DNA of 21,004 nt from a virus: positions 1-21,004 of the IMG/VR virus record IMGVR_UViG_3300038423_000721; one strand, written 5' to 3'. Each line of letters opens with the position of its first letter. Positions within the stretch are counted from its first letter, which is position 1. Both the position numbers and the translations under genes were made by a program. The notes under the pieces are model-generated. The model was not told the DNA's origin. It searched no databases and saw only the letters and a program-made list of their open reading frames with translations. Of this stretch, positions 3,263 through 21,004 are shown one piece after another.

Positions 3263-3373
3263 AGGAGTTAGAAGTTAGGAGTTAGGAGTTAGGAGTTAGA
3301 AGAAACGCGAGCAGGCCGGGCCTCCCGGCCCGGCTTCCGAATTCCAACTCCTAACTCCTGACTTCTAACTCCT
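3263..3373. repeat. 7-nt tandem repeat array with inverted counterpart (hairpin)
   Basis: GTTAGAA/GTTAGGA units repeat with a strict 7-nt period at 3263-3303. The complementary units (CTAACTCCTAACTCC and variants) occupy 3344-3373. Between them is a second GC-rich palindrome (CCGGGCCTCCCGGCCCGG). The whole gap therefore folds as nested hairpins. The right end abuts the stop codon of the upstream gene. Confidence 0.8.
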
Positions 3374-5862: not shown

Positions 5863-5952
5863 TGTAGGCCGCACACGCCGTGTGCGGGATCATCGGCACA
5901 CGGCGTGTGCCGGCTACATTACAGTGTGTGCCGTCTACATTACGGCGCGTGC
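5863..5952. repeat. Palindromic TGTAG...CTACA element, copy 1
   Basis: The core at 5863-5918 begins TGTAG, ends CTACA and contains two palindromes: CCGCACACGCCGTGTGCGG and CGGCACACGGCGTGTGCCG (8-bp stems, 3-nt loops). Two degenerate half-units (GTGTGCCGTCTACATTAC and GCGCGTGCCG) continue to about 5952. A second copy lies at 7982-8042. It occupies the gap between the 289-aa and Ala/Pro-rich genes. Confidence 0.8.
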
Positions 5953-5982: not shown

Positions 5983-6789
5983 TTACGGTCCAAACACCGT
6001 TGTGGGATCGGCCGTTTTCTTCTCGAGGAATTGGTTGGTTTTCTTATGCTCGGCCAGTTGGTCGCGGGCGACCTTGAGCTGCTCGACTTGATTGCTGCTG
6101 GTCGCCGACTCGCCGGAAAGGCCCTGGAGCTGGCCCAGGCCGGCTGAGGGCAGCGCGGAGGCCGTCCACGGCGGCAGAGCGGGTACGGATGGCGGCCATG
6201 GCAGGCCTTCCGTTTCCAAAGCCGGCGCCGTTGCCGGCGGTGCGCCGGCCGTCAACTGCCCAGCCAGGGCCGGCGCGGCGGCTTCGTCTGGCGGCGAGTC
6301 GGGCCATGGCGGGCCGCCTGGAAGCCCGGCCGCGGTTGCCGCCGGCCGCTGAGCGTCGTCCCCCGCCGCGGTTTCGCCGGTTGCCGAAGTGGCTTGCCCG
6401 GAGGGGGGCAGGCCAAAAGCGGCCAAGCCGGCGGGGGCCGGGTCGGCAGTAGCCGGGCTGGCCGGGGCCGTATCGTTCGCTCTACCTTCCGTCGCTGCCT
6501 TTCCGCCATCGGTCGCCGCTGCCGCGCTGGCCGCCGAAGCAGCCAGACGAGCAGCGACCAGGCCGGCAGCGGCCTGCGGGCCGCCCTCGGCCGTCGGGCT
6601 TGCAGCTTCCGCCTTGGTCTGGGCCCCGGGCGGCGGCGCCGCGTGCGCCGAAACAGCGGCCTCGATCCGCTGGGCAAGGGCCTCGAGCGTGGCCACGATT
6701 CGATCCACGTTTTGCGTCAATTGGGCCAGGGAAGCGTCCAGCCCGCGCCCGGCCGAGGAGGGGCGCGGATTGTCACGGCGAGCCGACAT
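5983..6789 (-). CDS. Ala/Pro-rich coiled-coil protein at the tape-measure position (268 aa)
   Basis: Three zones are visible. A short coiled coil (SLAQLTQNVDRIVATLEALA, about 19-39) is followed by about 170 residues of low-complexity Ala/Pro/Gly sequence. A charged helix at the C-terminus (SNQVEQLKVARDQLAEHKKT) completes it. The ATG at 6789 has GGAGG 9 nt upstream, inside the end of the preceding gene, so the 17-nt overlap is ordinary coupling. I see no slippery heptamer that would fuse it to the upstream frame. In siphophages the gene after the tail chaperones is normally the tape measure, which is far longer and helical throughout. This could be a short ruler, a tail chaperone partner or a scaffold. 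Function is unassigned. Confidence 0.6.
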   Translation of the reverse strand: MSARRDNPRPSSAGRGLDASLAQLTQNVDRIVATLEALAQRIEAAVSAHAAPPPGAQTKAEAASPTAEGGPQAAAGLVAARLAASAASAAAATDGGKAATEGRANDTAPASPATADPAPAGLAAFGLPPSGQATSATGETAAGDDAQRPAATAAGLPGGPPWPDSPPDEAAAPALAGQLTAGAPPATAPALETEGLPWPPSVPALPPWTASALPSAGLGQLQGLSGESATSSNQVEQLKVARDQLAEHKKTNQFLEKKTADPTTVFGP

Positions 6790-7981: not shown

Positions 7982-8042
7982 TGTAGCCGGCACACGCCGT
8001 GTGCCGTCCGCACGGTACGGCACACGGCGTGTGCCGACTACA
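7982..8042. repeat. Palindromic TGTAG...CTACA element, copy 2
   Basis: TGTAG at 7982 and CTACA ending at 8042 flank two near-identical palindromes, CGGCACACGCCGTGTGCCG (7988-8006) and CGGCACACGGCGTGTGCCG (8018-8036). The design matches the copy at 5863-5918. It sits immediately upstream of the tail tube ribosome-binding site, so the message would carry two stable stem-loops there. Confidence 0.85.
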
Positions 8043-8076
8043 TTGGAACTGACCAAGTGATTTACTGAGCGCCCGT

Positions 8077-8595: not shown

Positions 8596-9005
8596 GCGAT
8601 TTTCTCCTTGAAGATATGGACCATGCACACGAAATCGATATTCATTTGCCACACGCCGTCGTCCTGTTGCCGCTGGCCGCCGCCCGTTCGCCGCATCTCG
8701 ATCACGCGCTGGCCGTCGTCCAGGTCGAAATCCGTGCGATCGAAGGCGGCGTCGATTTGCTCGACGATGGCTGCCGCCGCATCGTAGTTGCCGTGGAAGA
8801 CTTGGAACCGCAGGCCGATCAAGCGGACGGTCGAGCCGTCGTTGCAGGCGGCCAGCGGCCGATCGCTCTGGAGGCTGACGACGGCCCGGGGCAGGCCGGG
8901 ATCGGGGCTGAGGCCCGTCGCGAGCCGCCCGCCCGGCAGCAGGGCGCACAGCGGCTCCACGGCCGACCAGCGGCAATGGATGGCCTGCATCAGGCTCAAG
9001 GCCAT
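8592..9005 (-). CDS. Putative tail completion / tail terminator protein (137 aa)
   Basis: The length (137 aa), alpha/beta character and position suit a tail terminator or tail-completion protein (the gpU or DUF3168-type role), which caps the tail tube and joins it to the head. Seen in the sequence: MALSLMQAIHCRWSAVEPLC, a helix-rich start; GLRFQVFHGNYDAAAAIVEQ, a strand followed by a helix; and a last strand WQMNIDFVCMVHIFKE. The order of a strand, an amphipathic helix (IVEQIDAAFD) and strands is usual for this family. The ATG at 9005 overlaps the upstream stop by 10 nt, and the end forms an ATGA overlap with the next gene. It is thus in a tight head-tail joining operon. Assignment is by fold-like pattern and synteny. 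Confidence 0.6.
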   Translation of the reverse strand: MALSLMQAIHCRWSAVEPLCALLPGGRLATGLSPDPGLPRAVVSLQSDRPLAACNDGSTVRLIGLRFQVFHGNYDAAAAIVEQIDAAFDRTDFDLDDGQRVIEMRRTGGGQRQQDDGVWQMNIDFVCMVHIFKEKIA

Positions 9006-9658
9006 GGCGTCACCTCCGCCTCGATGCTCTCCAGCTCGCCGATCAGCTCGGCGGCGGTGGTGCCGAGAACCTTGTAGATCGTTCCGTCCGGACCCTGAAT
9101 GCGGTGCGTGTGGTCGAGCTTTAGCGTCTGCTCCACGAAGATCCGGTAGCGGGTGACGGTCTGCCATGCCGCGTGCAGAACATCGGACTGCGAGGCGACC
9201 GGCTGAATGCGGGCCCGGATTCCCGTAAGCCACACCTGCCAGGCGGGCACGGCGGCGCCACCCGTTCCCGGGGTGTAGACGGCCTGTAGGACGGTGATCG
9301 TGTCGTCCAGGGCGTAGACCACGGCCAGGCTCCGCGCGGCGCACCGCCAGCGGGAGCCCAAGGCGGTGCCGGCCACGTCCAACACGGTCCAGCGACGGCC
9401 CTCGGCGTCGCACAGCACGTCGCCCAGCCGTGGGGCGGCGGGCAGCTCGGCGACCGGCAGGTGCCAGGTGACGTCGCTGGCCGTGTAGCGCCCGTCGGAA
9501 GCGGCCGCCTCGCGGGTCGTGACCGCCCGCCGCAAGGCGTGCGCAATCACCCTGCCCGGCGCGGCGGGGCTGCTGCCGCGCCGACGTATAATCACCGGCT
9601 CCAGGCCGTCGGCGACTTGTGCCAGGTCGGAAACAAGGTCCGGCGAGGGAGTCTTCAT
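8996..9658 (-). CDS. Putative head-tail joining (head closure) protein (220 aa)
   Basis: The C-terminal half (RARIQPVASQSDVLHAAWQT, then RYRIFVEQTLKLDHTHRIQG and DGTIYKVLGTTAAELIGELE) has the strand pattern and length of the head-closure family that includes SPP1 gp16 and HK97 gp7-like proteins. The first 150 residues are an extra beta-rich domain (GDVLCDAEGRRWTVLDVAGT), so the protein is about twice the family's usual 100-120 aa. Its ATG at 9658 directly follows the stop of the 70-aa gene with no gap, and it overlaps the next gene by 10 nt. Role: it would seal the portal channel after packaging and dock the tail. The family assignment is moderate. Confidence 0.6.
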   Translation of the reverse strand: MKTPSPDLVSDLAQVADGLEPVIIRRRGSSPAAPGRVIAHALRRAVTTREAAASDGRYTASDVTWHLPVAELPAAPRLGDVLCDAEGRRWTVLDVAGTALGSRWRCAARSLAVVYALDDTITVLQAVYTPGTGGAAVPAWQVWLTGIRARIQPVASQSDVLHAAWQTVTRYRIFVEQTLKLDHTHRIQGPDGTIYKVLGTTAAELIGELESIEAEVTPWP

Positions 9659-9885: not shown

Positions 9886-11592
9886 TCAAATCACGTTAAT
9901 GCGGAATCTCACGAGCACGATTTGCCCGGCCGCCGGGGTCAGCCGGTACTCGACCAGATAGCGGCAGCCGGCCACGGGGAAGGCGGACTGCCGGGAGACG
10001 TCCGGCGTGTGGCGGAAGTTGTACGCGGCCGCGTCCTGGTCGGTCTGAAGGGCGTCGAAGATCACCTCCGCGGCCGCCAACGGCAGCGCGGAGAACCCGG
10101 GGACCGGCGCTCGGCAGTCCGGGTCCTGGTCGTCGAGCAGGTACACCGAGTAGGCGATCGTTTGCACGTCGGCCTGCTGGATGTCGCGGCCCCGGTAGGA
10201 AACGTGAGCCGCCAGGGGCCGCGTGCCGCCGCGGAACACCGTGCTGTAAATGTCTGCGTCGGCCTGGGCCACGGCGGGGGCCCCCGCCGCCGGGCCGCCG
10301 GTGAGCGTGCGTTGGGGGTTCGACCACACGGCCGCCGGCAGCGCGGCCACCGCACCGGCCGCGGTGCCGGCCGCGGTTTCCGCACCGGCGGCTGACGCCG
10401 CGGCGCTGTCGGCGCTGGTCTTGGCCTCCGCGGCTGCGGTGGCTGCACTGCCGGCGCTGGTGGCCACGCCGGCCAGGGCGGCAGCCGTGGCCAGGTGGTT
10501 GCCGGCGTCGTCCACTGCGCGGACGTTGCCGCTGGGGTCAACGGCGGGCTGGTGCGCCGGCAGATTCGCCAACCGCGGGTCGCCCAGGGCCGTCAGGCCG
10601 GCCCCGCCCGCGCCGATCTGCTGGTAGACCTCGTCCGTGTAGCGGTCCACGCGGAAGTAGTATTCGCGGGCGTATGCCACGAAGCTGCTGAGCGTGCTGC
10701 TGTAGGGCTGCCAAAAGCACCACACATCGCCGCTGTCACCCGGCACCCAGGGGCTGTTGCAGGGGAAGTCGAAGGTGTACTGCCCAGGCGATGAAATCCA
10801 CGTCAGCGTGATGGGCGTGTTGACATCCGGCGTGCCGTTGCGAAACACGATCACCAGCGGGATCACCGGCGGATCGACCATTTGCCCCGGCGGGCTGGTC
10901 GTAAGGTCCGACGCAAACAACTGCCGGACGCCCACCGTGTGCGTCGCGGATATGTCGGGCAGGTCGGTCTGAGAGAGGATCTCGATCGTCGCGCCCGGGA
11001 TCGAGACGGATGTCTGGTAATGCGTGTTCTTAAGCGTGATGCTGACCGGCGGTGAAGCTGGGTTGAAAATGACCGGATAGCCGCGGGAGTTGGACAGCGA
11101 CACAATTACTGATGCGTCGGCGGGCACCAGCTCCCAGCCGTCGATGAGCGTGCAGCCGCCGGCCAGAGCTATGGTCACACCCGAGGAGATCTGGGTTACT
11201 CCGTTGCCGAGGTCCCAGATGCCTTTGACCAGGACGTTTCCGTTGCACTGGCAGTTGCAGTCGACCTCGGCCGCGCCCACTGGAAACAAGGCCAAACAGC
11301 CAGTCGTCTCGATCGTGGTCTGGCTCGCACTCCCGGAATCGTTCAGGGTAACGCTGACATGCACGTGGCCGGCGGACTGGGTGAGAATGCCTGCGACATC
11401 CAGGTTGCCCAGCAGCGAAACGTATCCGCCGCCGTGGATCGTGCCGAAGGACACGACGTCACCGGCCGCGATGGTGATGTCATCGCTGTTGTTGCCGTCG
11501 CCGTCGAAGGTCGGCGCGACGCCTCCGACCCAAATCGAGCCGCTCTCCCAGGCGACGGCGCCCTGGTTGCCCTTGGTCGTGAAAGAAGTCAT
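9886..11592 (-). CDS. Fibre-like virion protein (568 aa)
   Basis: The N-terminal 330 residues are rich in Gly, Thr, Ser and alternate like a beta helix or beta sandwich (VAPTFDGDGNNSDDITIAAG; a run of Cys at VDCNCQCNGN). A middle stretch of about 60 residues is Ala/Ser/Thr-rich (TAAAEAKTSADSAAASAAGA), likely a trimeric coiled coil. It runs into VWSNPQRTLTGG, a Trp-Ser-x-x-x-Arg-Thr-Leu-Thr motif I recall in phage fibre-type proteins. The C-terminal 120 residues form a separate domain ending QIVLVRFRINVI. The start is ATG at 11592, with a weak ribosome-binding site. It lies between the capsid genes and the head-tail joining genes, an unusual place for a tail fibre, so a head fibre or neck whisker is possible. 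Confidence 0.6.
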   Translation of the reverse strand: MTSFTTKGNQGAVAWESGSIWVGGVAPTFDGDGNNSDDITIAAGDVVSFGTIHGGGYVSLLGNLDVAGILTQSAGHVHVSVTLNDSGSASQTTIETTGCLALFPVGAAEVDCNCQCNGNVLVKGIWDLGNGVTQISSGVTIALAGGCTLIDGWELVPADASVIVSLSNSRGYPVIFNPASPPVSITLKNTHYQTSVSIPGATIEILSQTDLPDISATHTVGVRQLFASDLTTSPPGQMVDPPVIPLVIVFRNGTPDVNTPITLTWISSPGQYTFDFPCNSPWVPGDSGDVWCFWQPYSSTLSSFVAYAREYYFRVDRYTDEVYQQIGAGGAGLTALGDPRLANLPAHQPAVDPSGNVRAVDDAGNHLATAAALAGVATSAGSAATAAAEAKTSADSAAASAAGAETAAGTAAGAVAALPAAVWSNPQRTLTGGPAAGAPAVAQADADIYSTVFRGGTRPLAAHVSYRGRDIQQADVQTIAYSVYLLDDQDPDCRAPVPGFSALPLAAAEVIFDALQTDQDAAAYNFRHTPDVSRQSAFPVAGCRYLVEYRLTPAAGQIVLVRFRINVI

Positions 11593-12311: not shown

Positions 12312-13493
12312 TTACTGCCTGGTGGGCAGTGGAACGCTCTTGACGATGTAGCGGGGGTTGATCACGGCGGCCGCCCCGCGCTCCGAAGCCTTGAAGCGAA
12401 TCACGACGTCCTGGTTGAAGTCGGCATCGCTGTTGGGCGGCGACTGGGTCACCGTGATCGGCCAGTTCTGCATGTAGGCGAAGGCCTTGCGGAAATCGCC
12501 GAGGAACCACCACTTCTTGGCGTCGCCGCTGGTCTGGCCCGAGGCGATGATCCGCCGATACGCCAAGCGGCTCTCGTAGAACTGGTAGGTCTTGCTGTAG
12601 GGATTGGCGTAGGTGGCGCGGACCTGGTCCTCTTCGGCGCCGTAGATCAGCTCGGTAGCGCTGAGGATGCGGGCCGCCGCGTGGCGGTAGGCCGGCATCA
12701 CCAGCAGCGTCGTGGCCTGGATCAGCACTGGCTCGCCGGTGTTGGGATCGAGGATGTCGGCGAAGAGTTGTTCGGCGGCGTCGAGGTTGGTCCAGTTGAC
12801 CAGTTCCTGCTGGAGGACGTTGGTCCACGGGCCGCCGTCGGTGGGGCCGTAATAGGTGTTGTACTGCGTGCCCTTCCACTTGTAGTTGTTGTCGACGCCG
12901 ATGAGCAGGTCCAGCAGCCGCTTTTCCTTGTTCAGGCCGAGGATCTCGCCCACCTCGGCGGCGCGCTGCAGGACGAGGTGGGTGCGGTCGAAGAACACGG
13001 CTTCGCGGGTCACGGGCACGATGAATCCGCGCTTGGTGGTGGAGGGCGTTTCGATGTAGTCCTCGCCCAGTCCGACGCTGGGATAGGGCATGCCCGGCCG
13101 CACTTCGGCCACGTCGTCGGCCAGCCGGCCGATGCCGGGGATCTTCTCGCCGTCCAGCCGCGTGGGGACCGCTTCCACCAACTGCGACAGGATGAACGCC
13201 TCCTGGGCGTAGGCGGCGAGGATCGTCGAGTAGATGATCTGGCCGGTGATGTTCGAGAAGGCCGTCACGTCCACGGCGTCGCCGGCCTCCAGCAGCCGCA
13301 CGCCGCCGGTGTTGCGGGGATCGAGCTGCTTGACCCACGCCGGCCCGACCGTCGCCTCGGCCAGCTCCCGAATGCTGAAGTCCTCGGCTTTCAGATGGCC
13401 CTCCTCCAGGGCCTCGCGGAGGCGCTCGGCGGTCGGCTCGGGCCCGCACAGCTCGTACATGCGTTTCAATTCACGATACTTGATCGCTCGCAC
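12312..13493 (-). CDS. Major capsid protein, HK97-fold candidate (393 aa)
   Basis: This is the best major capsid candidate by length (393 aa), order (after protease and decoration genes) and composition. It shows a long helical N-terminus (RELKRMYELCGPEPTAERLR), a central region GFIVPVTREAVFFDRTHLVL that suits the HK97 E-loop and spine helix, and later beta-rich segments (RIIASGQTSGDAKKWWFLGD, then VVIRFKASERGAAAVINPRY). Most of the first 100 residues may be removed by the protease, as in HK97. The start is GTG at 13493, 9 nt after AAGGAG; the open frame continues further upstream only into GTTGTC repeats. The capsid shell is its expected location. The family name within HK97-like capsids cannot be given. 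Confidence 0.75.
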   Translation of the reverse strand: MRAIKYRELKRMYELCGPEPTAERLREALEEGHLKAEDFSIRELAEATVGPAWVKQLDPRNTGGVRLLEAGDAVDVTAFSNITGQIIYSTILAAYAQEAFILSQLVEAVPTRLDGEKIPGIGRLADDVAEVRPGMPYPSVGLGEDYIETPSTTKRGFIVPVTREAVFFDRTHLVLQRAAEVGEILGLNKEKRLLDLLIGVDNNYKWKGTQYNTYYGPTDGGPWTNVLQQELVNWTNLDAAEQLFADILDPNTGEPVLIQATTLLVMPAYRHAAARILSATELIYGAEEDQVRATYANPYSKTYQFYESRLAYRRIIASGQTSGDAKKWWFLGDFRKAFAYMQNWPITVTQSPPNSDADFNQDVVIRFKASERGAAAVINPRYIVKSVPLPTRQ

Positions 13494-13516
13494 GGTTCGT
13501 TTCTCCTTGCTTGGAT

Positions 13517-13587
13517 AGTTGTCAGTTGTCGGTTGTCGGTTGTCAGCGTTCAGACTGAGAACTGAACACTGAACACTGGCTACTGAG
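13517..13587. repeat. GTTGTC and ACTGAAC 7-nt arrays
   Basis: AGTTGTC/GGTTGTC units (7-nt period) lie at 13517-13546, and ACTGAGA/ACTGAAC/ACTGGCT units (7-nt period) at 13554-13587. The GGTTGTC array is the same motif as that at 4736-4772, so one repeat type occurs at two separate gene junctions. It separates the decoration and major capsid genes. Confidence 0.8.
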
Positions 13588-13603
13588 CGGCTACAGCCGC
13601 GCC

Positions 13604-14089
13604 CTAGCTGCCGCTGAAGCTGCTGCCTTCCACGCCGCCGGTCATGACGGTCGAGCGGATGTCGACCAGCACGCTGGTGGCCGGCGTGGGGGCCCGGCGG
13701 GCCACGCGACCCACCGCGCAACAACTGGCGGCCACCTTGGCCACCTGCTGATTCAGTAGCGCGCTACCGTTGGTAGTCGCGTCCGGACCGACCAGGTTGC
13801 CCAGCTCGAAGGCCGTGGCGGGGCAATCCATCTCGAACACTCCGGTGGTGGCGACGCGGATCGGCGCCGTGTCGCCGGCGCGGCTGCGCTGCATCGCCAC
13901 GCCCAGGAACTGGAAGGCAAACGCCTCCTGGTTGGCCGCCTTGCCGCCCTGGTTGCTCAGGGCCGAGGCCGGCTGCGCATTGTCGACGCTCTGCCACAGC
14001 AGATCGCCGATCTCGATCACGGTTTCCGAATGCACGGCCGCCACCACCGGACTGGTATCGCCGTACCGCCAACGCATCTTGTCTGTCAT
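13604..14089 (-). CDS. Putative capsid decoration / cement protein (161 aa)
   Basis: This resembles the small beta-rich decoration proteins (the DUF2190 or gpD-like role). The strand motif HSETVIEIGDLLWQSVDNAQ near the N-terminus, VATTGVFEMDCPATAFELGN in the second half, and the position immediately before the major capsid gene in reading order all fit. The length is close to that family (100-160 aa). A second ATG lies at 14077, but ATG 14089 has AGGAA about 9 nt upstream and is preferred. Decoration proteins bind outside the expanded shell and stabilise it. The C-terminus (TGGVEGSSFSGS) is a flexible Gly/Ser tail. I am moderately sure of the role and less sure of the family. Confidence 0.6.
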   Translation of the reverse strand: MTDKMRWRYGDTSPVVAAVHSETVIEIGDLLWQSVDNAQPASALSNQGGKAANQEAFAFQFLGVAMQRSRAGDTAPIRVATTGVFEMDCPATAFELGNLVGPDATTNGSALLNQQVAKVAASCCAVGRVARRAPTPATSVLVDIRSTVMTGGVEGSSFSGS

Positions 14090-14110: not shown

Positions 14111-14197
14111 AGGAGTTAGAAGTTAGAAGTTAGAAGTTAGAAGTTAGGAGTTAGGAGATCCGGCGGGGGGCACTGGCGCTTGCGCCGGTGCCACCCC
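14111..14197. repeat. GTTAGAA 7-nt array and GC-rich hairpin after the protease gene
   Basis: GTTAGAA (four units) and GTTAGGA (two units) repeat with a 7-nt period at 14111-14157, the same motif as at 3263-3303. Next to it, GGGGCACTGGCGC and GCGCCGGTGCCACCCC (14167-14197) form a near-perfect hairpin with a 2-nt loop just past the protease stop codon. No U-run follows, so an intrinsic terminator is doubtful. Confidence 0.75.
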
Positions 14198-15459: not shown

Positions 15460-15829
15460 TAGCAGTTCCTGTAAGATTTGTGCAGCCGCGTTGTGCATCG
15501 GGTCCGGGGCGGTCTGCCGCCTTCGGAACGAAGCGCGGCCGCTACTGTCGGACAAACGTGGCAACGGGCCGTATCGAGAGGGGACGGTTCGCGCCGGCGG
15601 CGGAGTTCCAGGCCCGAGGACCGCAGAATCAATAAGTGTACTCATCTCGCTCCGCGAGATGGGCTTTCATCTCGCTCCAGCGAGATGAGTACGGTGGCGA
15701 ACACGACAATAATTGATTCGCCGGTCCTTGGCTGCTTGAGGTGCGGCGACAATCGGGCCCCGAGGGCTGGCTACGCCCGGCCGTTACATCCGTCTTGCGC
15801 CAGCGTTCGGCCCTTGCCGACGCTGTGCC
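15460..15829. other. Gene-free 370-nt gap with a long hairpin
   Basis: No credible gene is present. ORFs here have biased, Pro/Arg/Ser-rich products and no similarity to any family I know. The main structure is GTACTCATCTCGCT (15638-15651) paired perfectly with AGCGAGATGAGTAC (15679-15692), and the loop contains a related CGCGAGATG/CATCTCGC pair. The rest (for example 15700-15830) looks like non-coding filler, possibly host repeat DNA. It separates the decayed paralogue from the promoter. Confidence 0.55.
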
Positions 15830-16124
15830 ATAACACTCGTCATTGAGATGCCTGACCATTTCCGGCCAGGCGTCTTCCGCGTGCTCGATAAGCGCGTGGA
15901 ACGCGCGCGGCTCTGGCGTACTCGGCCGAATCGTAGTTCTTAGGGAAAACCGCCCGCTCGCGGGAGTCGAAAAGAGGTGCGGGATTGCGATTCGCCAACG
16001 CCTCGACCATGGCGCGGGCATCCGGCGCCGCCGGCTTCTGCTTGTCACCGGGTGGGCCCGCCAGCGCGGCGGCGGCGGCGCAAAAAGCCGCGGCGCATGC
16101 CAACAGGTTCGCTTTGGGGCTCAT
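15830..16124 (-). pseudogene. Frameshifted, truncated paralogue of the exported protein upstream
   Basis: The sequence MSPKANLLACAAAF opens a signal peptide like that of its neighbour, followed by GPPGDKQKPAAPDARAMVEA and RNPAPLFDSRERAVFPKNYD. Compared with the neighbour (GPPGDKQKQPAPPDARAMVE; VFPKRYDSSEYVRAARAFYV) the identity is high at the nucleotide level. A net 2-nt deletion at about 15905-15912 throws the frame after RAAR. The expected continuation AFHALIEHAEDAWPEMVRHL is present in the other frame. Similarity ends near 15830, so two thirds of the gene is lost. Its ATG (16124-16122) overlaps the neighbour's TGA stop as ATGA, which indicates that it was once translationally coupled. This is a tandem duplication in decay. 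Confidence 0.8.
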
Positions 16125-16933
16125 TTGCTCGGGTTGCCCACGCAAATCGAGACCGACTCGCCGAAGCCTTTGAATCGGAAGGCCTGCTTCGAGGTCTTGA
16201 GACGTTCAATTTCGGACTTGATCCCCGCGATCCATTCGAGCCGCTCCGACTTTGATACTCGTTCAAACCCGCCTTTTTCCACCTCCGCGACCGCCCATTG
16301 GCAGACTTCGATCTGCAGCTCGTACAGTCGCTTTGTGCTTCGCGCATCGCACCACGCCTTGAGAATGTCTTTGCCGATCATTGAACCTCTTTTGTCGGGC
16401 AGGAACTTCTCTAGCCGATAATACGACTTTTTATCCGTATGGACATGCTGGAGGTAACTTCCTGTCAGCGCCCCGACGACGATCTCCCGGCAAACGTCCC
16501 CCACGGTCCAATTGTGCGCGTAACCAGACGACGAATCGATGTCGTGGCTGATTGTGATACTGTAACGGTCGTCATTGAGATGCCCGACGATCTCGGGCCA
16601 GGCGTCTTCCGCGTGGTCGATAAGTACGTAGAATGCTCGCGCCGCCCTGACGTACTCCGACGAATCGTAGCGTTTAGGGAAAACCGCCTGGTGGTCGGCG
16701 TCGATACCGGGTACGGGGTTTCGATTCCCCAACGCCTCTACCATTGCCCGGGCATCCGGCGGGGCGGGCTGCTTCTGCTTGTCGCCGGGTGGCCCCGCTA
16801 GCGCGGCGGCGCAAAAAGTCGCGGCGCAGGCCAGCAAAGCCGCTTTCGGAACGGCGCGAGGGCGCCGCGCAGGCCGAGGGGAATCGGTCCTTCCGCGTTT
16901 GCACGAATCGTAGAACCACATTTCGCACCCCAT
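16121..16933 (-). CDS. Exported protein of unknown function, candidate immunity partner (270 aa)
   Basis: A basic stretch (RPARRPRAVPK) is followed by a hydrophobic core (AALLACAATFCAAALA, about 31-46) and GPPGDK, which together read as a signal peptide with an Ala-Leu-Ala cleavage site. The mature part contains YDSSEYVRAARAFYVLIDHA, EDAWPEIVGHLNDDRYSITI, AHNWTVGDVCREIVVGALTG and a helical end (RLEWIAGIKSEIERLKTSKQ). I recall related planctomycete proteins of this type, present in several copies per genome, with no known function. The ATG at 16933 lies 5 nt after the portal stop. The N-terminal extension before the signal is longer than in the decayed paralogue, and no better start exists. 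A duplicated exported gene behind a toxin-like domain is the usual position for immunity; that is inference. Confidence 0.62.
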   Translation of the reverse strand: MGCEMWFYDSCKRGRTDSPRPARRPRAVPKAALLACAATFCAAALAGPPGDKQKQPAPPDARAMVEALGNRNPVPGIDADHQAVFPKRYDSSEYVRAARAFYVLIDHAEDAWPEIVGHLNDDRYSITISHDIDSSSGYAHNWTVGDVCREIVVGALTGSYLQHVHTDKKSYYRLEKFLPDKRGSMIGKDILKAWCDARSTKRLYELQIEVCQWAVAEVEKGGFERVSKSERLEWIAGIKSEIERLKTSKQAFRFKGFGESVSICVGNPSK

Positions 16934-16938
16934 TTTCG

Positions 16939-19188
16939 CTAGTAAGAGCGTGGTTTCGGGCTGTAGCGTGACTTGAACTTGTAGTTCTCGATGTTCGGGT
17001 CCTGCCGCTCCGGGTCCGAATAACCATGGACATCCCTCTTCAACTGGTGCTCGTCGGCAATTCTGCCGCCGTCCATGTGAACGTACTGCTGAACGCCGCT
17101 GTCATCCTTGCCTGCGTAAATCACATTCGACCCCTCGTAGCCATCCTTGTCAACCCCTTTCCTGTGCATGTGGTTCTGCATCCAAACGCGATCCCCCGGG
17201 GCGAAGGTGTTGGGGGCAATGCCGTGCGAGTTGCCGTTGTAGGTCTGGTAGTCACTGTTCCGCCCGCTCGGGTACAGGTCCGGCAAGGTCTTGCCGGCGA
17301 CGTCCTTTTCAAACTCGGCCGTTTTTCCCTCTTTCTTCGCCTGTTGCGCCTGCGCCTCCAGCATAAGCGATCGGGCCGCCGGTGTACATGCGGTTTCACT
17401 TCCGATACCGCTTATCCCGTACACGCGATCGTGGATTCCCTCGGTGGCCTGGCCCGGCTTGATGTGGAACGTATCTTTCGGCTTGCCGTTGACAATAGTT
17501 GTGCGCTTCTCGAAATAGGCCGGGTTCGGTTCCTTCTTTGTGTTGAACTTCATTTTATGGCCGAGGGCCGCCTTGACCAACTCGTACCGCAGATCGCGCT
17601 CCTTTTTGGAAATCTTACCCGCCGCGACCATCGCGTCAAGCTCGGCGGCCGCCCGCGCCAACTGGCCCCTTCGGCCGGCGTTCAGGTATGGCGCGTCGTC
17701 GGGGCTAACGGTATGACCGCCTTGGCCGGCAGCGCCGCCGCCCGTGGTCCATCGGCCTCGCTCGTCTCTCGGTTCGTCCGGGTTGAAGTTGGCCTCCCGG
17801 AGCCCCGCGTGCTGGGCGATCAACTGCTGCTCGCGATCGGGCTCCAGGCCGTGGCGCATGGCCATGGTCTGCCGCGACATGGCCCCGTTGCGGACCAGGA
17901 TCTGGTCGGCCTGGGCCTCTTGCAGCCGGTCGCGAACGGCCAGCGTGGGGGCCACGGCCTGGATGTCGACGGCAGCGAGGGCCTGGTGCGGCAGGCGGCC
18001 GGTTTCCACGGCGTGCGCCAGCACCCGCCCGAGCAACTGCAAGTCGTCCTCGATCGTCTCGTTCTGCAGCCGCTCGAACATCTTGACGGCCGGCCCTTCG
18101 GCCACCATCGTCGAGGCGTAGTTGGCGTTGCTGGCGTCGCTGGAGAGCATGAACTCGGGCATGACCAGGCGGCTGGCGATGGCCCGCAGCTCGGCCTGCA
18201 GCACGGTTACGTAGCGGGCGGCGTCCAGGCCGGCGGCGGGGAATTCGTAGTCCGTGCCCGCCGCCGTGTCGAGGATCGTGCCCGGGGCGTAGCGGTGCAG
18301 GTAGGCGGTCCGCCCGGTGGTCTGGTTGGTGAGGTTGAAATCGGCCTGGTCGCGGACGAACTGATCAAGGGCCGCGCCGCTGGCCGCCTGGTGCTTGCGG
18401 ATCAAGGCGATAGAGGACTGGATCTGCGCCACGGCGCTCATGTTGCGGAGGAGCTTGTCGGCCCGCCGCAGGTTCTTGCGAACGGGGTAGAACAGGGGCA
18501 GGCCCCGCCGCACGTTGCCGTCGACGTTGGCCTTGCGATGCTGGATTTCGCGCTCCCCGACGAGCCGGCCGTCGATCCAGTATCCGAGCACGGTTTCCAC
18601 GTCACCGGGCTGGGTCTGGATGCCCATGGCCGCGGCCGGGTCGCCGGCGTGCTGCGGCGGCGTGGCCACTTGCCCCGGCTCGACGAAGCGGATTTGCGTG
18701 CTCCCGTCGGAGGCGGCGAACAATCGCAGGAAGCATTCCCCGTCGCGGTCCTTGCGGCGGACGATCTCCTGCTGACGCTTGTGCCAATGATTGGCCTGGA
18801 CGAACTCGTCCAGCAGGTCCTGCACCTGGCCCACCAGTCCTTGCGCGGCGGGGTTGGGCCGGGTGCTGAAGGCCCGGTACGAGTGCCCGCTGCCCACGAT
18901 GTACGAAATCCGGTTCTCGTGGCCGTTGATGGCGAATTCGTTGGTCACGGCGAGGATCCGGCACTGGGTGCGGATTTCCGCCAGTTGTTGCTCGTTGACA
19001 ATGATGCCGGCGCTGCCGTACCACAGTCCGCTTTGGCCGACGAGGTTCCAGCGCGTGCCGTCGACGTCGTAGAAGGCGTCTTCGGGATCGACGAAGCTGC
19101 CGCACAACTCCTCGAAGGCCTCGGTCAGGCGGCGCTGCAGCCGGGTGAGGTGTGAAGCACTGGGCGGAGCCGAATCGTTGGGGCTCAT
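16939..19188 (-). CDS. Phage portal protein with C-terminal transglutaminase-like effector domain (749 aa)
   Basis: Residues 1-465 match a lambda-type portal by length and position: a long helical region, QADFNLTNQTTGRTAYLHRY, and the typical LVMPEFMLSSDASNANYAST motif (about 341-360). It forms the dodecameric DNA gate at the head vertex. Then follows FNPDEPRDERGRWTTGGG (about 468-485), a linker type known from phage proteins that carry C-terminal toxin domains. Residues 577-749 resemble the Bacillus spore-coat transglutaminase: candidate Cys601 (TACTPAARSL), FAPGDRVWMQN (about 662-672), GYEGSNVIYAG (about 683-693) and His704 (QQYVHMDGG). The position of the usual catalytic Glu is Ser here. 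The ATG at 19188 has AAGGA 9 nt upstream; earlier codons are repeat DNA. Portal confidence is high, the effector call is moderate. Confidence 0.75.
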   Translation of the reverse strand: MSPNDSAPPSASHLTRLQRRLTEAFEELCGSFVDPEDAFYDVDGTRWNLVGQSGLWYGSAGIIVNEQQLAEIRTQCRILAVTNEFAINGHENRISYIVGSGHSYRAFSTRPNPAAQGLVGQVQDLLDEFVQANHWHKRQQEIVRRKDRDGECFLRLFAASDGSTQIRFVEPGQVATPPQHAGDPAAAMGIQTQPGDVETVLGYWIDGRLVGEREIQHRKANVDGNVRRGLPLFYPVRKNLRRADKLLRNMSAVAQIQSSIALIRKHQAASGAALDQFVRDQADFNLTNQTTGRTAYLHRYAPGTILDTAAGTDYEFPAAGLDAARYVTVLQAELRAIASRLVMPEFMLSSDASNANYASTMVAEGPAVKMFERLQNETIEDDLQLLGRVLAHAVETGRLPHQALAAVDIQAVAPTLAVRDRLQEAQADQILVRNGAMSRQTMAMRHGLEPDREQQLIAQHAGLREANFNPDEPRDERGRWTTGGGAAGQGGHTVSPDDAPYLNAGRRGQLARAAAELDAMVAAGKISKKERDLRYELVKAALGHKMKFNTKKEPNPAYFEKRTTIVNGKPKDTFHIKPGQATEGIHDRVYGISGIGSETACTPAARSLMLEAQAQQAKKEGKTAEFEKDVAGKTLPDLYPSGRNSDYQTYNGNSHGIAPNTFAPGDRVWMQNHMHRKGVDKDGYEGSNVIYAGKDDSGVQQYVHMDGGRIADEHQLKRDVHGYSDPERQDPNIENYKFKSRYSPKPRSY

Positions 19189-19226
19189 GATTAAGGTTCC
19201 TTGGGGTTGAAGTATCTGACAAACTC

Positions 19227-19343
19227 GTCCCCTCTCCCTTTGGGAGAGGGGCAGGGGTGAGGGCCTGGAAAAGCGCGTTAGCCAGGCAACAGTTTCTTCG
19301 CCAATCGCCCTCACCCTAACCCTCTCCCGGAGGGAGAGGGGAC
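19227..19343. repeat. MITE-like inverted-repeat element, copy 2
   Basis: The 117-bp element has the same ends as that at 1767-1889. The left arm (19227-19263) begins GTCCCCTCTCCCTTTGGGAG and contains GGGGTGAGGG. The right arm (19308-19343) begins CCCTCACCCTAACCCTCTCC and ends GGAGAGGGGAC-like. The interior differs between copies and includes GCCTGG/CCAGGC. It fills the gap between the terminase and portal genes and would form a long hairpin in the message. Confidence 0.8.
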
Positions 19344-19364
19344 GAACTTGCCAAAGTCGCGTCA

Positions 19365-19394
19365 GGTTTCTATTCCACGGGTTTCTATTCCACT
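19365..19394. repeat. 15-bp tandem duplication across the terminase stop codon
   Basis: GGTTTCTATTCCACG (19365-19379) is followed directly by GGTTTCTATTCCACT (19380-19394), 14 of 15 bases identical. The second copy carries the stop of the terminase gene. It is a small local duplication, probably slippage. Confidence 0.8.
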
Positions 19395-21004
19395 ATCAGC
19401 CGGGTGCCCAGACCGTCGCGGGCCGCGCGGCCGGCCAGCAGGTCGGCCGCCAGGCGGACGGCCATCTCCAGGGCGTCTGGCCCGTCGTCGTGGTCGCCGA
19501 TGGGGAACTGCTGAAGCTGCTCCACCAGTTCCCGGGTGCCGGGGCTGCCGGTCTTGAACCGCAGGCGGCGCCCGGCCAGGTAGGGTCCCAGGCGGCGGAT
19601 GCGGACCAGCTTGTTGACGTGGTTTTCCAGGGGCCAGGGGCGGGCGGCCAAGAGGCCCTGCCGCCGCAGCTCGCTCTCGAACTCGGCGCCCAGCAGGTCC
19701 TGGAATTGGTTGGCCTCGATGCCGAACACGTCGGGCCGGAAGCGGCGGTAGATCTCCACGCCGTCGGCCACGATCTGCGGCGTGGGGCGGCGGGCCAGGT
19801 CCGCCTCGACGAATACCAGCCCCTGCCGGTCCACGCCCAGCATCACCAGCGCCGAGTAATCGCCGCGCCGCGAGTCGGCCCCCTTGCTCGGATCCAGGGC
19901 CAGTGTTTTCACCAGCAGGCGGCCGGGCCAGGTCTCGAACCAGATCGACTCGTCGAAGTAGGATTCGGGCCATTCGCAGAGGTCGGGATTGACGGGCGAG
20001 TTCTGCTTTTCCCGCTCGAAGGCGGTCCGCCCGCCTTCGACCCGCATGCACATGAGCGTGTAAAGGTCTTCTTCCTCAGGCCAGAGCAGGATCGCGCCGG
20101 CCTCCATGTCCTGGCGGTGCTCTTCGTAGAAGCGGCGGGCCGCCTGCCGGTAGCCGGGATTGGTCAGCTCGGTATAGAACGTCTCCCACTGCTGCCACAG
20201 GGACATGTTGTCGGGCCAGCGCTCGATGGCGCGGAAGACTCGCGAGGTCCAGCCCGGCCGGCGGTCGAGCTCCATGGCCAGCGCCTCGCGGTGCAAGGCG
20301 GTGGCCAGGTTCACCACGTTGGTCCGCGGGGTGCCGGCCTTCATCAACATGCCGTGGAACCAGCTCCGCGAGTGCTCGCGTTGCAGGGCCGAGCTGATAT
20401 GGCCGTCGTTTTGCAGGTCGTCGCAGACGATGAGCGTGGGGCGATGCTCGCGGCGGCGGCGGCCGCGGAGCCGCTGGCCGCTGCCGAAGGCCTCGACGGC
20501 CGCGCCGTTGCGCAGCACCACCGTCCCGGCCCGCCACACCGGCCCGCGACCCGCCGACTGCGGATAATCCGCCGTGAGCCGGTCGTTGTCGATCAACTCG
20601 GCCTTGACGTTCTCCAGGTGCGCGCAGGCCTGGTGCCGCGTGTCGGAGACGATCCAGATGTAGGGTTCCGAGCCTTCCAGGGCGGCGCGGAGGAGAAAGG
20701 TCAGCGTGCCCAGCGTCGATTTCGCGCCGCTGCGGGGGGCCAGGACGTTGAGTTTCACGCCGCGGATCACGCGCATCGTGTCCAGCCAGCGGGCCAGCCA
20801 CAGGTGCATCCGCGACGACGGCCGGCTGAAATAGCGGGGCAGATACTGGCGGCCCCAGGCCAGCAGATCGAGGTCCGCCCGGCCACTGGCGGCCCACCCT
20901 TTCCGGTCGCGGCGGGCCAGCTCGCCGCGCAAGCCGCGGAGCGCCGACCGCAGCAGCCGCCACGACGCACGGCCGTCGTCCATCAGCGTGTCAATGTAAA
21001 TCAT
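19385..21004 (-). CDS. terL: Terminase large subunit (539 aa, start at window edge)
   Basis: This is the DNA-packaging motor ATPase-nuclease. The Walker A-like motif APRSGAKST is at about 89-97, and the Walker B stretch LIVCDDLQND at about 191-200 has Asp195 and Asp196. The C-terminal RNase H-like nuclease shows LALDPSKGAD (Asp371), VFGIEANQFQ (Glu430) and GDHDDGPDALEMAV (Asp504-Asp507), which are the expected metal ligands. Length is normal for the family (450-600 aa). The ATG coincides with the last base of the window, so an upstream extension cannot be excluded; no small terminase subunit is in view. It heads the late operon, with the portal gene next, as in most tailed phages. Packaging type (cos or pac) cannot be read. 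Confidence 0.9.
   Translation of the reverse strand: MIYIDTLMDDGRASWRLLRSALRGLRGELARRDRKGWAASGRADLDLLAWGRQYLPRYFSRPSSRMHLWLARWLDTMRVIRGVKLNVLAPRSGAKSTLGTLTFLLRAALEGSEPYIWIVSDTRHQACAHLENVKAELIDNDRLTADYPQSAGRGPVWRAGTVVLRNGAAVEAFGSGQRLRGRRRREHRPTLIVCDDLQNDGHISSALQREHSRSWFHGMLMKAGTPRTNVVNLATALHREALAMELDRRPGWTSRVFRAIERWPDNMSLWQQWETFYTELTNPGYRQAARRFYEEHRQDMEAGAILLWPEEEDLYTLMCMRVEGGRTAFEREKQNSPVNPDLCEWPESYFDESIWFETWPGRLLVKTLALDPSKGADSRRGDYSALVMLGVDRQGLVFVEADLARRPTPQIVADGVEIYRRFRPDVFGIEANQFQDLLGAEFESELRRQGLLAARPWPLENHVNKLVRIRRLGPYLAGRRLRFKTGSPGTRELVEQLQQFPIGDHDDGPDALEMAVRLAADLLAGRAARDGLGTRLIVE

Follow-up and report, generated by a model that had tools for sequence, protein, structure and literature searches.

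A transglutaminase-like extension of a phage portal protein as a probable polymorphic toxin-immunity cassette

A phage genome passes through the portal, a protein whose copy number per particle is fixed. Why should a portal gene run on past its normal end into a domain that resembles an enzyme? We address this question in a 21,004-base IMG/VR virus record (IMGVR_UViG_3300038423_000721, positions 1 to 21,004, here called the window, to whose positions coordinates refer), where a portal gene on the minus strand continues in frame into a region resembling transglutaminases of the TGL family. Residues are numbered from the ATG at 19188, which is a likelier start than the GTG before it and gives a protein of 749 amino acids. 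The relationship to the transglutaminase Tgl is supported at the profile level, and we now favour a portal-borne toxin of the cassette type over a virion enzyme. We consider it probable that the portal C-terminus bears a polymorphic toxin-immunity cassette, in which the portal would be the conserved carrier, the linker NFNPDEPRDERGRW the joint where cassettes are swapped, the TGL-like domain the effector, and the product of the next gene its immunity protein.

The initial annotation had read the portal as ending normally before continuing for about 280 residues, and this is borne out. Residues 109-417 match the portal family PF05136 in Pfam (E 6.8e-18, 65.4 bits against a cut-off of 32.9), and an AlphaFold model built with 26 portal sequences aligns with the lambda portal 8xow_B over residues 54-470 (Z 25.6, root-mean-square deviation 6.8, 351 aligned); a whole portal therefore precedes the extension, whose first residue is 467. 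The Foldseek and VIA-align matches listed for this model are portals, the VIA-align rows covering residues 54-466 and being uninformative on the extension. The extension itself (16939-17790, minus strand) begins NFNPDEPRDERGRWTTGGG and stays in the portal frame for 283 residues before a stop. Its frame holds no stop codons, against 5, 9, 1, 12 and 9 in the five other frames, and its GC content by codon position is of the coding type, 0.76 at third positions (GC3) versus 0.44 at second positions. The same fusion is present in IMGVR_UViG_3300038429_000668 with 2 differences in 10,294 bases, so an assembly error is unlikely; this record is the same virus and not an independent evolution of the fusion. 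The fusion is confirmed as an observation, seen in two records of one virus. In the 26-sequence model, the predicted local distance difference test score (pLDDT) is low at the joint (residues 483-502), high over two helices to about residue 540, and then mostly low, falling below 50 over residues 546-602 and 634-749, which comprise most of the TGL part.

By sequence comparison, the extension is well supported as a distant relative of TGL. Plain Pfam places it below the cut-off for PF20085 (E 0.0035, 17.1 bits against 23.7), with profile positions 50-196 aligned. This family is uncommon, occurring in 3/398 genomes in the phylum of G007, a Rhodospirillales metagenome-assembled genome (MAG). In the PDB, a profile of those three PF20085 proteins picked out 7C9J (E 3.3e-8) and 4P8I (E 1.4e-4), both entries for the Bacillus spore coat transglutaminase Tgl, and hhalign aligned the extension with the three-protein profile at E 4.2e-7 across 144 columns, with the cysteine aligned. 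When this comparison was rerun with controls it scored 58.7 (E 8.9e-8), while the best of 200 letter shuffles reached 24.8 and the best of 200 decoys, open reading frames (ORFs) picked at random from the fetched loci, reached 25.4. When the extension was searched together with 1,820 ORFs by hmmsearch, it came out at E 3.2e-6 and the best sequence from outside this virus at E 0.3. Identity to the three PF20085 proteins is 26-31%, and Cys643, PGDRVW and GYEGSxVIY are kept; Cys643 aligns with the catalytic cysteine of Tgl both in the alignment and in hhalign, residue 116 of chain 4p8i lying at the cysteine of the PF20085 proteins. The four motif blocks on which the Tgl-like domain had initially been proposed are all present, and the profile comparison, exceeding shuffles and decoys, argues for the same assignment.

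The extension is paired with a gene that starts just past the portal stop, and both depart from the composition of the portal. From 0.91 in the portal core, GC3 falls to 0.76 in the extension and to 0.71 in the adjoining gene, and 150-codon windows give 0.86-0.95 for the core and 0.73-0.77 for the extension, without overlap. Extension and gene look like one acquired unit. The product of this candidate immunity gene contains a hydrophobic stretch, ALLACAATFCAAALA (residues 32-46), after a basic segment, and its sequence suggests a protein that is exported or membrane-anchored. Its export-like N-terminus, together with that of the gene behind a cassette in another contig, L003, hints at an envelope target for both; the immunity protein of the L082 nuclease cassette described below has no export-like segment. 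The candidate immunity gene has no plasmid match, is found in viral contigs only in the same virus, and among 13 virus records occurs in the window only.

How common is such an extension among portals? Close portals were defined as the best 80 of 325 confirmed portal relatives in viral contigs; 74 have a readable 3' end, one of these being the window's virus, and six are cut (L097, L137, L028, L151, L154 and L158). None of the 73 others carries a TGL-type or similar extension, their tails reaching at most 71 residues past the core. Among these portals, the search for the same C-terminal extension that the initial annotation had recommended yielded only the same virus. Three more distant portals, from the 36 loci of an earlier scan, have tails of 95-117 residues that do not look effector-like by eye (L037, plus L031 and L040, both cut by the locus end). 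In the phylum of G007, PF05136 gives 116 matches in 69/398 genomes, the longest open frame having 656 residues compared with 817 in the window. Neither the portal of the window nor the extension has a match in phage or plasmid records (for the extension, at E up to 0.1 among 50,697 phage and 72,556 plasmid records). One candidate relative of the extension, L077, was rejected as a false positive; by eye it is an ASCH-like phage protein.

The joint is shared more widely than the domain behind it. The same or nearly the same joint as NFNPDEPRDERGRW stands in L004/L039, L003, L068 and L069 before other downstream sequences, and the initial annotation was right to see a linker of a type found on other phage proteins. 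The pattern NPxxPRDExGRW occurs in 28 viral contigs, and in the 27 that were parsed it joins, by eye, MuF-like, ART-like, zeta-toxin-like and other ORFs; it is therefore a general phage joint, and as a specific marker it was rejected, being spread over varied phage ORFs. The strict form of the linker is found in 4 viral contigs and a slightly looser form in 2 bacterial contigs, both Rhodospirillales MAGs. In L068 and L069, from two Rhodospirillales MAGs, ORFs with YNPDEPRDERGRW near their start lead into long domains that have no significant Pfam match, and these ORFs adjoin a conserved neighbour on the opposite strand. On the 5' side of a toxin-free portal, L003 has an effector-like ORF led by the linker, with an export-like gene as its neighbour (1-1032 and 1081-2160); the ORF has an 80-residue non-portal N-terminus and so presents the same joint on another carrier.

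In a second portal lineage, different effectors stand on nearly identical portals. The portals of L039 and L082 are 94% identical over 533 residues, and their extensions are unrelated. The portal of L004/L039 (L003 and L004 being linker-sharing contigs found with the extension as query) leads into an extension of about 423 residues with the motif HELGHGAQ, zincin-like by eye and without a Pfam hit, followed by a small gene. L082 encodes in a single ORF a PF05136 portal (2.9e-14), a variant linker, FNPSQLRNRFGQW, and a terminal LHH nuclease (PF14411, 7.6e-26), and a SUKH gene lies 13 bases past this fusion (PF14567 3.8e-20, PF14568 6.5e-17, PF09346 2.7e-12); the PF05136, PF14411 and PF14567 matches all exceed the curated cut-offs. 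GC3 drops at the joint in both loci, from 0.83 to 0.63 in L082 and from 0.82 to 0.61 in L039. A third close portal of this lineage, L083, is 98% identical and is cut by the contig end, and both of the two close second-lineage portals with a readable end carry effector-like domains that differ from each other.

The second lineage also has arrays of truncated carriers. The 11-kb L039 contig contains three extra truncated portal C-termini (1634-2289, 6034-6708 and 8845-9006, with 87-92% nucleotide identity), one of which leads through a linker into a different extension and then a gene with a weak match to Imm49 (E 0.01, below cut-off). L082 contains one truncated portal end after its SUKH gene, followed by another linker-led ORF, so that two of the four truncated ends lead into further linker-led ORFs. 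The window has no truncated portal ends and holds only a decayed copy of the immunity gene. An ORF at 9964-10722 in the L039 cassette array has GLKPHHAGGDVIQYTPAVLHQIQHTD near its end; by eye it resembles an HNH-type nuclease, without a Pfam hit.

Several observations weigh against a toxin-immunity cassette in the window. The array-bearing portals (L004/L039, L082) are only about 33% identical to the portal of the window, and L084 and L085, relatives of the array lineage at about 31% identity, end without an effector-like extension. The TGL cassette was seen in one viral population only: in viral contigs neither the extension nor the candidate immunity gene has relatives beyond the same virus, in pattern-led scans that work best for close relatives, and exchange at the joint in the window's own lineage is therefore seen only by absence elsewhere. 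No family, known immunity families included, has an above-cut-off match to the product of the candidate immunity gene; in L082 the gene behind the fusion does belong to an immunity family, SUKH. A profile search had been advised from the start, and its outcome is divided, with a profile-profile match to PF20085 on one side and, on the other, the plain Pfam score below cut-off and a search of the extension alone against PDB sequences that gave no transglutaminase and only an agarase (E 0.73). For the NlpC/P60-like papain fold expected of a TGL member, a single-sequence AlphaFold model of the extension had a mean pLDDT of 42.6 and was not used. Catalysis presents a further difficulty. In Tgl it depends on Cys116 and Glu187, or on Glu115 if Glu187 is absent, and His200 matters for substrates (PMC6490927, cited here, like the other papers below, from excerpts of its text). 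In the extension the dyad glutamate is not at the aligned position, serine standing in 4/4 aligned sequences where 7c9j has the glutamate of GEN, and the residue directly before the cysteine is not glutamate. Activity is therefore unproven, though homology is well supported. Finally, a covalent extension of the portal would not be ejected without cleavage, and its transfer to another cell is something we infer.

Could the domain serve the particle itself? The initial annotation had offered cross-linking of virion proteins as one option, in which a TGL-like virion enzyme would tie together head and neck proteins around the portal for strength, and the next gene would be unrelated. Tgl does cross-link spore coat proteins (PMC6490927), and the domain sits where virion proteins are. 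Yet the domain is missing from 73/73 other close portals whose 3' end can be read, the extension shares its atypical composition with the next gene, distant portals have a nuclease or zincin-like domain at the same place, and the dyad glutamate is not conserved; the option is now less well supported, and we regard it as quite unlikely. A chance or decaying fusion to a non-functional fragment of an unrelated gene would agree with an extension in one viral population only, with a plain Pfam match below cut-off and with the decay of the neighbouring gene copy. Against it stand 283 open codons with coding-type GC3, the retained cysteine and core motifs, the intactness of the paired gene, and the portal-effector fusions of a different lineage, and we find such an accident very improbable.

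The other possibility is an effector of the "polyvalent protein" kind, carried in the head and aimed at the newly infected cell for host takeover or anti-defence, which would need no immunity protein. Portal fusions to PBECR, 2H, InPase, Nudix and ART domains are mostly read in this way (PMC5512222, PMC9503650). For the present fusion we hold it to be unlikely, since paired downstream genes, including the SUKH gene behind the portal-LHH fusion, are a polymorphic-toxin feature, as are the truncated-carrier arrays. An LHH-type nuclease, moreover, is a killing domain. The effector alternative in the initial annotation fits better than the cross-linker: where the window's portal has its TGL-like domain, related portals have a nuclease, in that case accompanied by a SUKH gene, or a zincin-like domain. 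Among effectors, the toxin-immunity cassette is the reading we prefer.

Portals have twelve copies with the C-terminus towards the capsid interior, and about twelve copies of the effector would therefore be located inside the head around the channel. The cysteine of the effector, probably with the nearby histidine, may modify target proteins through transglutaminase or deamidase chemistry, with toxicity falling on cells that lack the immunity protein. Delivery would proceed by release from the portal, through cleavage at the flexible linker by, for example, a head protease, or by leakage from lysed cells. If this is true, polymorphic toxin cassettes can have an essential virion protein as their carrier, and a transglutaminase-type effector joins the phage-borne toxins. 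The purpose of head-borne phage toxins would also become directly testable, because such a toxin would have a defined copy number, position and immunity partner. It is a more tentative thought, to which we give less than even chances, that the portal ring of some tailed phages is a mount for interchangeable toxins, the particles of these phages doubling as interbacterial weapons. Every particle would then hold about twelve covalent effectors in its head, here a transglutaminase-like cross-linker and elsewhere a nuclease or protease, and lysogens would keep immunity genes together with arrays of spare cassettes recombining through the portal ends.

Table 1. Coordinates of the portal fusion, its neighbours and context genes in the window
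Feature	Position	Strand	Basis or remark
Portal-TGL fusion ORF	16939..19314	-	791 codons from GTG
Lambda-type portal core, complete	17791..19188	-	PF05136; AlphaFold model vs lambda portal
Linker NFNPDEPRDERGRW, putative portal/effector joint	17749..17790	-	near-identical joints in other loci; low pLDDT nearby
TGL-like domain	17068..17595	-	PF20085 below cut-off, hhalign, alignment
Cys643 codon (ETAC)	17386-17388	-	nucleophile candidate
FAPGDRVW, residues 704-711	17182-17205	-	
GYEGSNVIY, residues 725-733	17116-17142	-	
His746 codon (QQYVHMDG)	17077-17079	-	
Candidate immunity gene	16121..16933	-	ATG 5 bases past portal stop
Decayed second copy of candidate immunity gene	15824..16145	-	76% amino acid identity over 75 residues, then frame-broken
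Large terminase (context)	19385..21004	-	PF17289 E 1.5e-5
Major capsid protein (context)	12312..13724	-	PF25209 E 6.7e-17

Beyond the features in Table 1, the minus strand of the window also encodes, further on from the portal, a cement-type protein and what is probably the major tail protein (PHROG 1407, E 2.8e-4). Around the fusion gene there are 3 promoter-like sites against 0.9 expected and 3 terminator-like sites against 5.5 expected, which were not used. Short interspersed or inverted repeats, many at or near gene ends, occur at 1770-1889, 3263-3373, 5863-5921, 7982-8044, 14111-14168 and 19217-19353, and in our view fit better with a bacterial chromosome than with a compact phage genome.

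Other records show features of their own. In G003, an element of about 14.6 kb (record positions about 15140-29790; L003 2616-4409, L041, L079 and L114) splits a toxin-free portal gene between INGH and ENRISY and encodes a large serine recombinase (PF00239, PF07508, PF13408). At about 4001 in L104, L110 and L113 the portal frame also starts at ENRISY, with similar sequence just before it, and insertion may recur at INGH/ENRISY; over the stretch shown, L113 and L114 are identical. The recombinase was found only in G003, the other contigs having been viewed over about 4 kb upstream (8 kb for the contig of L104, as L010). In G413, HlyD-type and protein kinase genes adjoin a phage-like module (L087 715-5130), which suggests that this record includes bacterial chromosome with a prophage edge at L087. 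In both G412 and G413 the other large phage-like ORFs, as assigned by eye, lie on the opposite strand from the portal, and the capsid-like and protease-like ORFs of G413 have no Pfam hit.

The cassette can be set beside known systems. Rhs and CdiA have orphan cassettes on truncated carriers, to which the truncated portal ends bear a likeness. Like the polymorphic toxins of Rhs, CdiA and the type VI secretion system (Zhang 2012, PMC3482391), the portal cassettes pair a conserved carrier with a variable C-terminal toxin and an adjacent immunity gene, including SUKH with a nuclease, but are carried by a virion portal where those systems use a secreted filament or effector. The predicted domain shares with Tgl (PF20085; 4P8I, 7C9J) the catalytic cysteine, the PGD...N and G-x-x-VIY-x-G blocks in order and a histidine close behind, and differs from it in the serine aligned with the dyad glutamate, also present in the three PF20085 proteins, and in its fusion to a portal. 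That no portal-transglutaminase fusion had been described agrees with the open-licence papers searched, in which neither a portal-TGL nor a portal-LHH fusion turned up, nor any toxin borne on a portal together with immunity genes and orphan arrays; fusions of portals to PBECR, 2H, InPase, Nudix and ART domains are, however, in print, and a portal-effector fusion as such is therefore known. Those polyvalent proteins (Iyer 2017, PMC5512222; Iyer 2022, PMC9503650) likewise have effectors fused directly to portals, but the excerpts of the two papers name neither TGL nor LHH as a portal-fused domain, and the related-lineage fusions come with an immunity-family gene and with effector exchange. The nearest system in kind is that of the MuF polymorphic toxins of temperate phages (Jamet 2017, PMC5576092; Bxa, PMC11699363), which resemble the present case in their head-region carrier, C-terminal toxin, small downstream immunity gene and proposed loading into the head, as far as excerpts of these papers describe them. 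Since hmmscan against Pfam at E up to 1 reported no MuF domain (PF04233 or PF06152) in the fusion ORF, it is not itself a MuF toxin. Unlike in the MuF toxins, the carrier here would be the portal itself, and truncated-carrier arrays accompany it in the related lineage.
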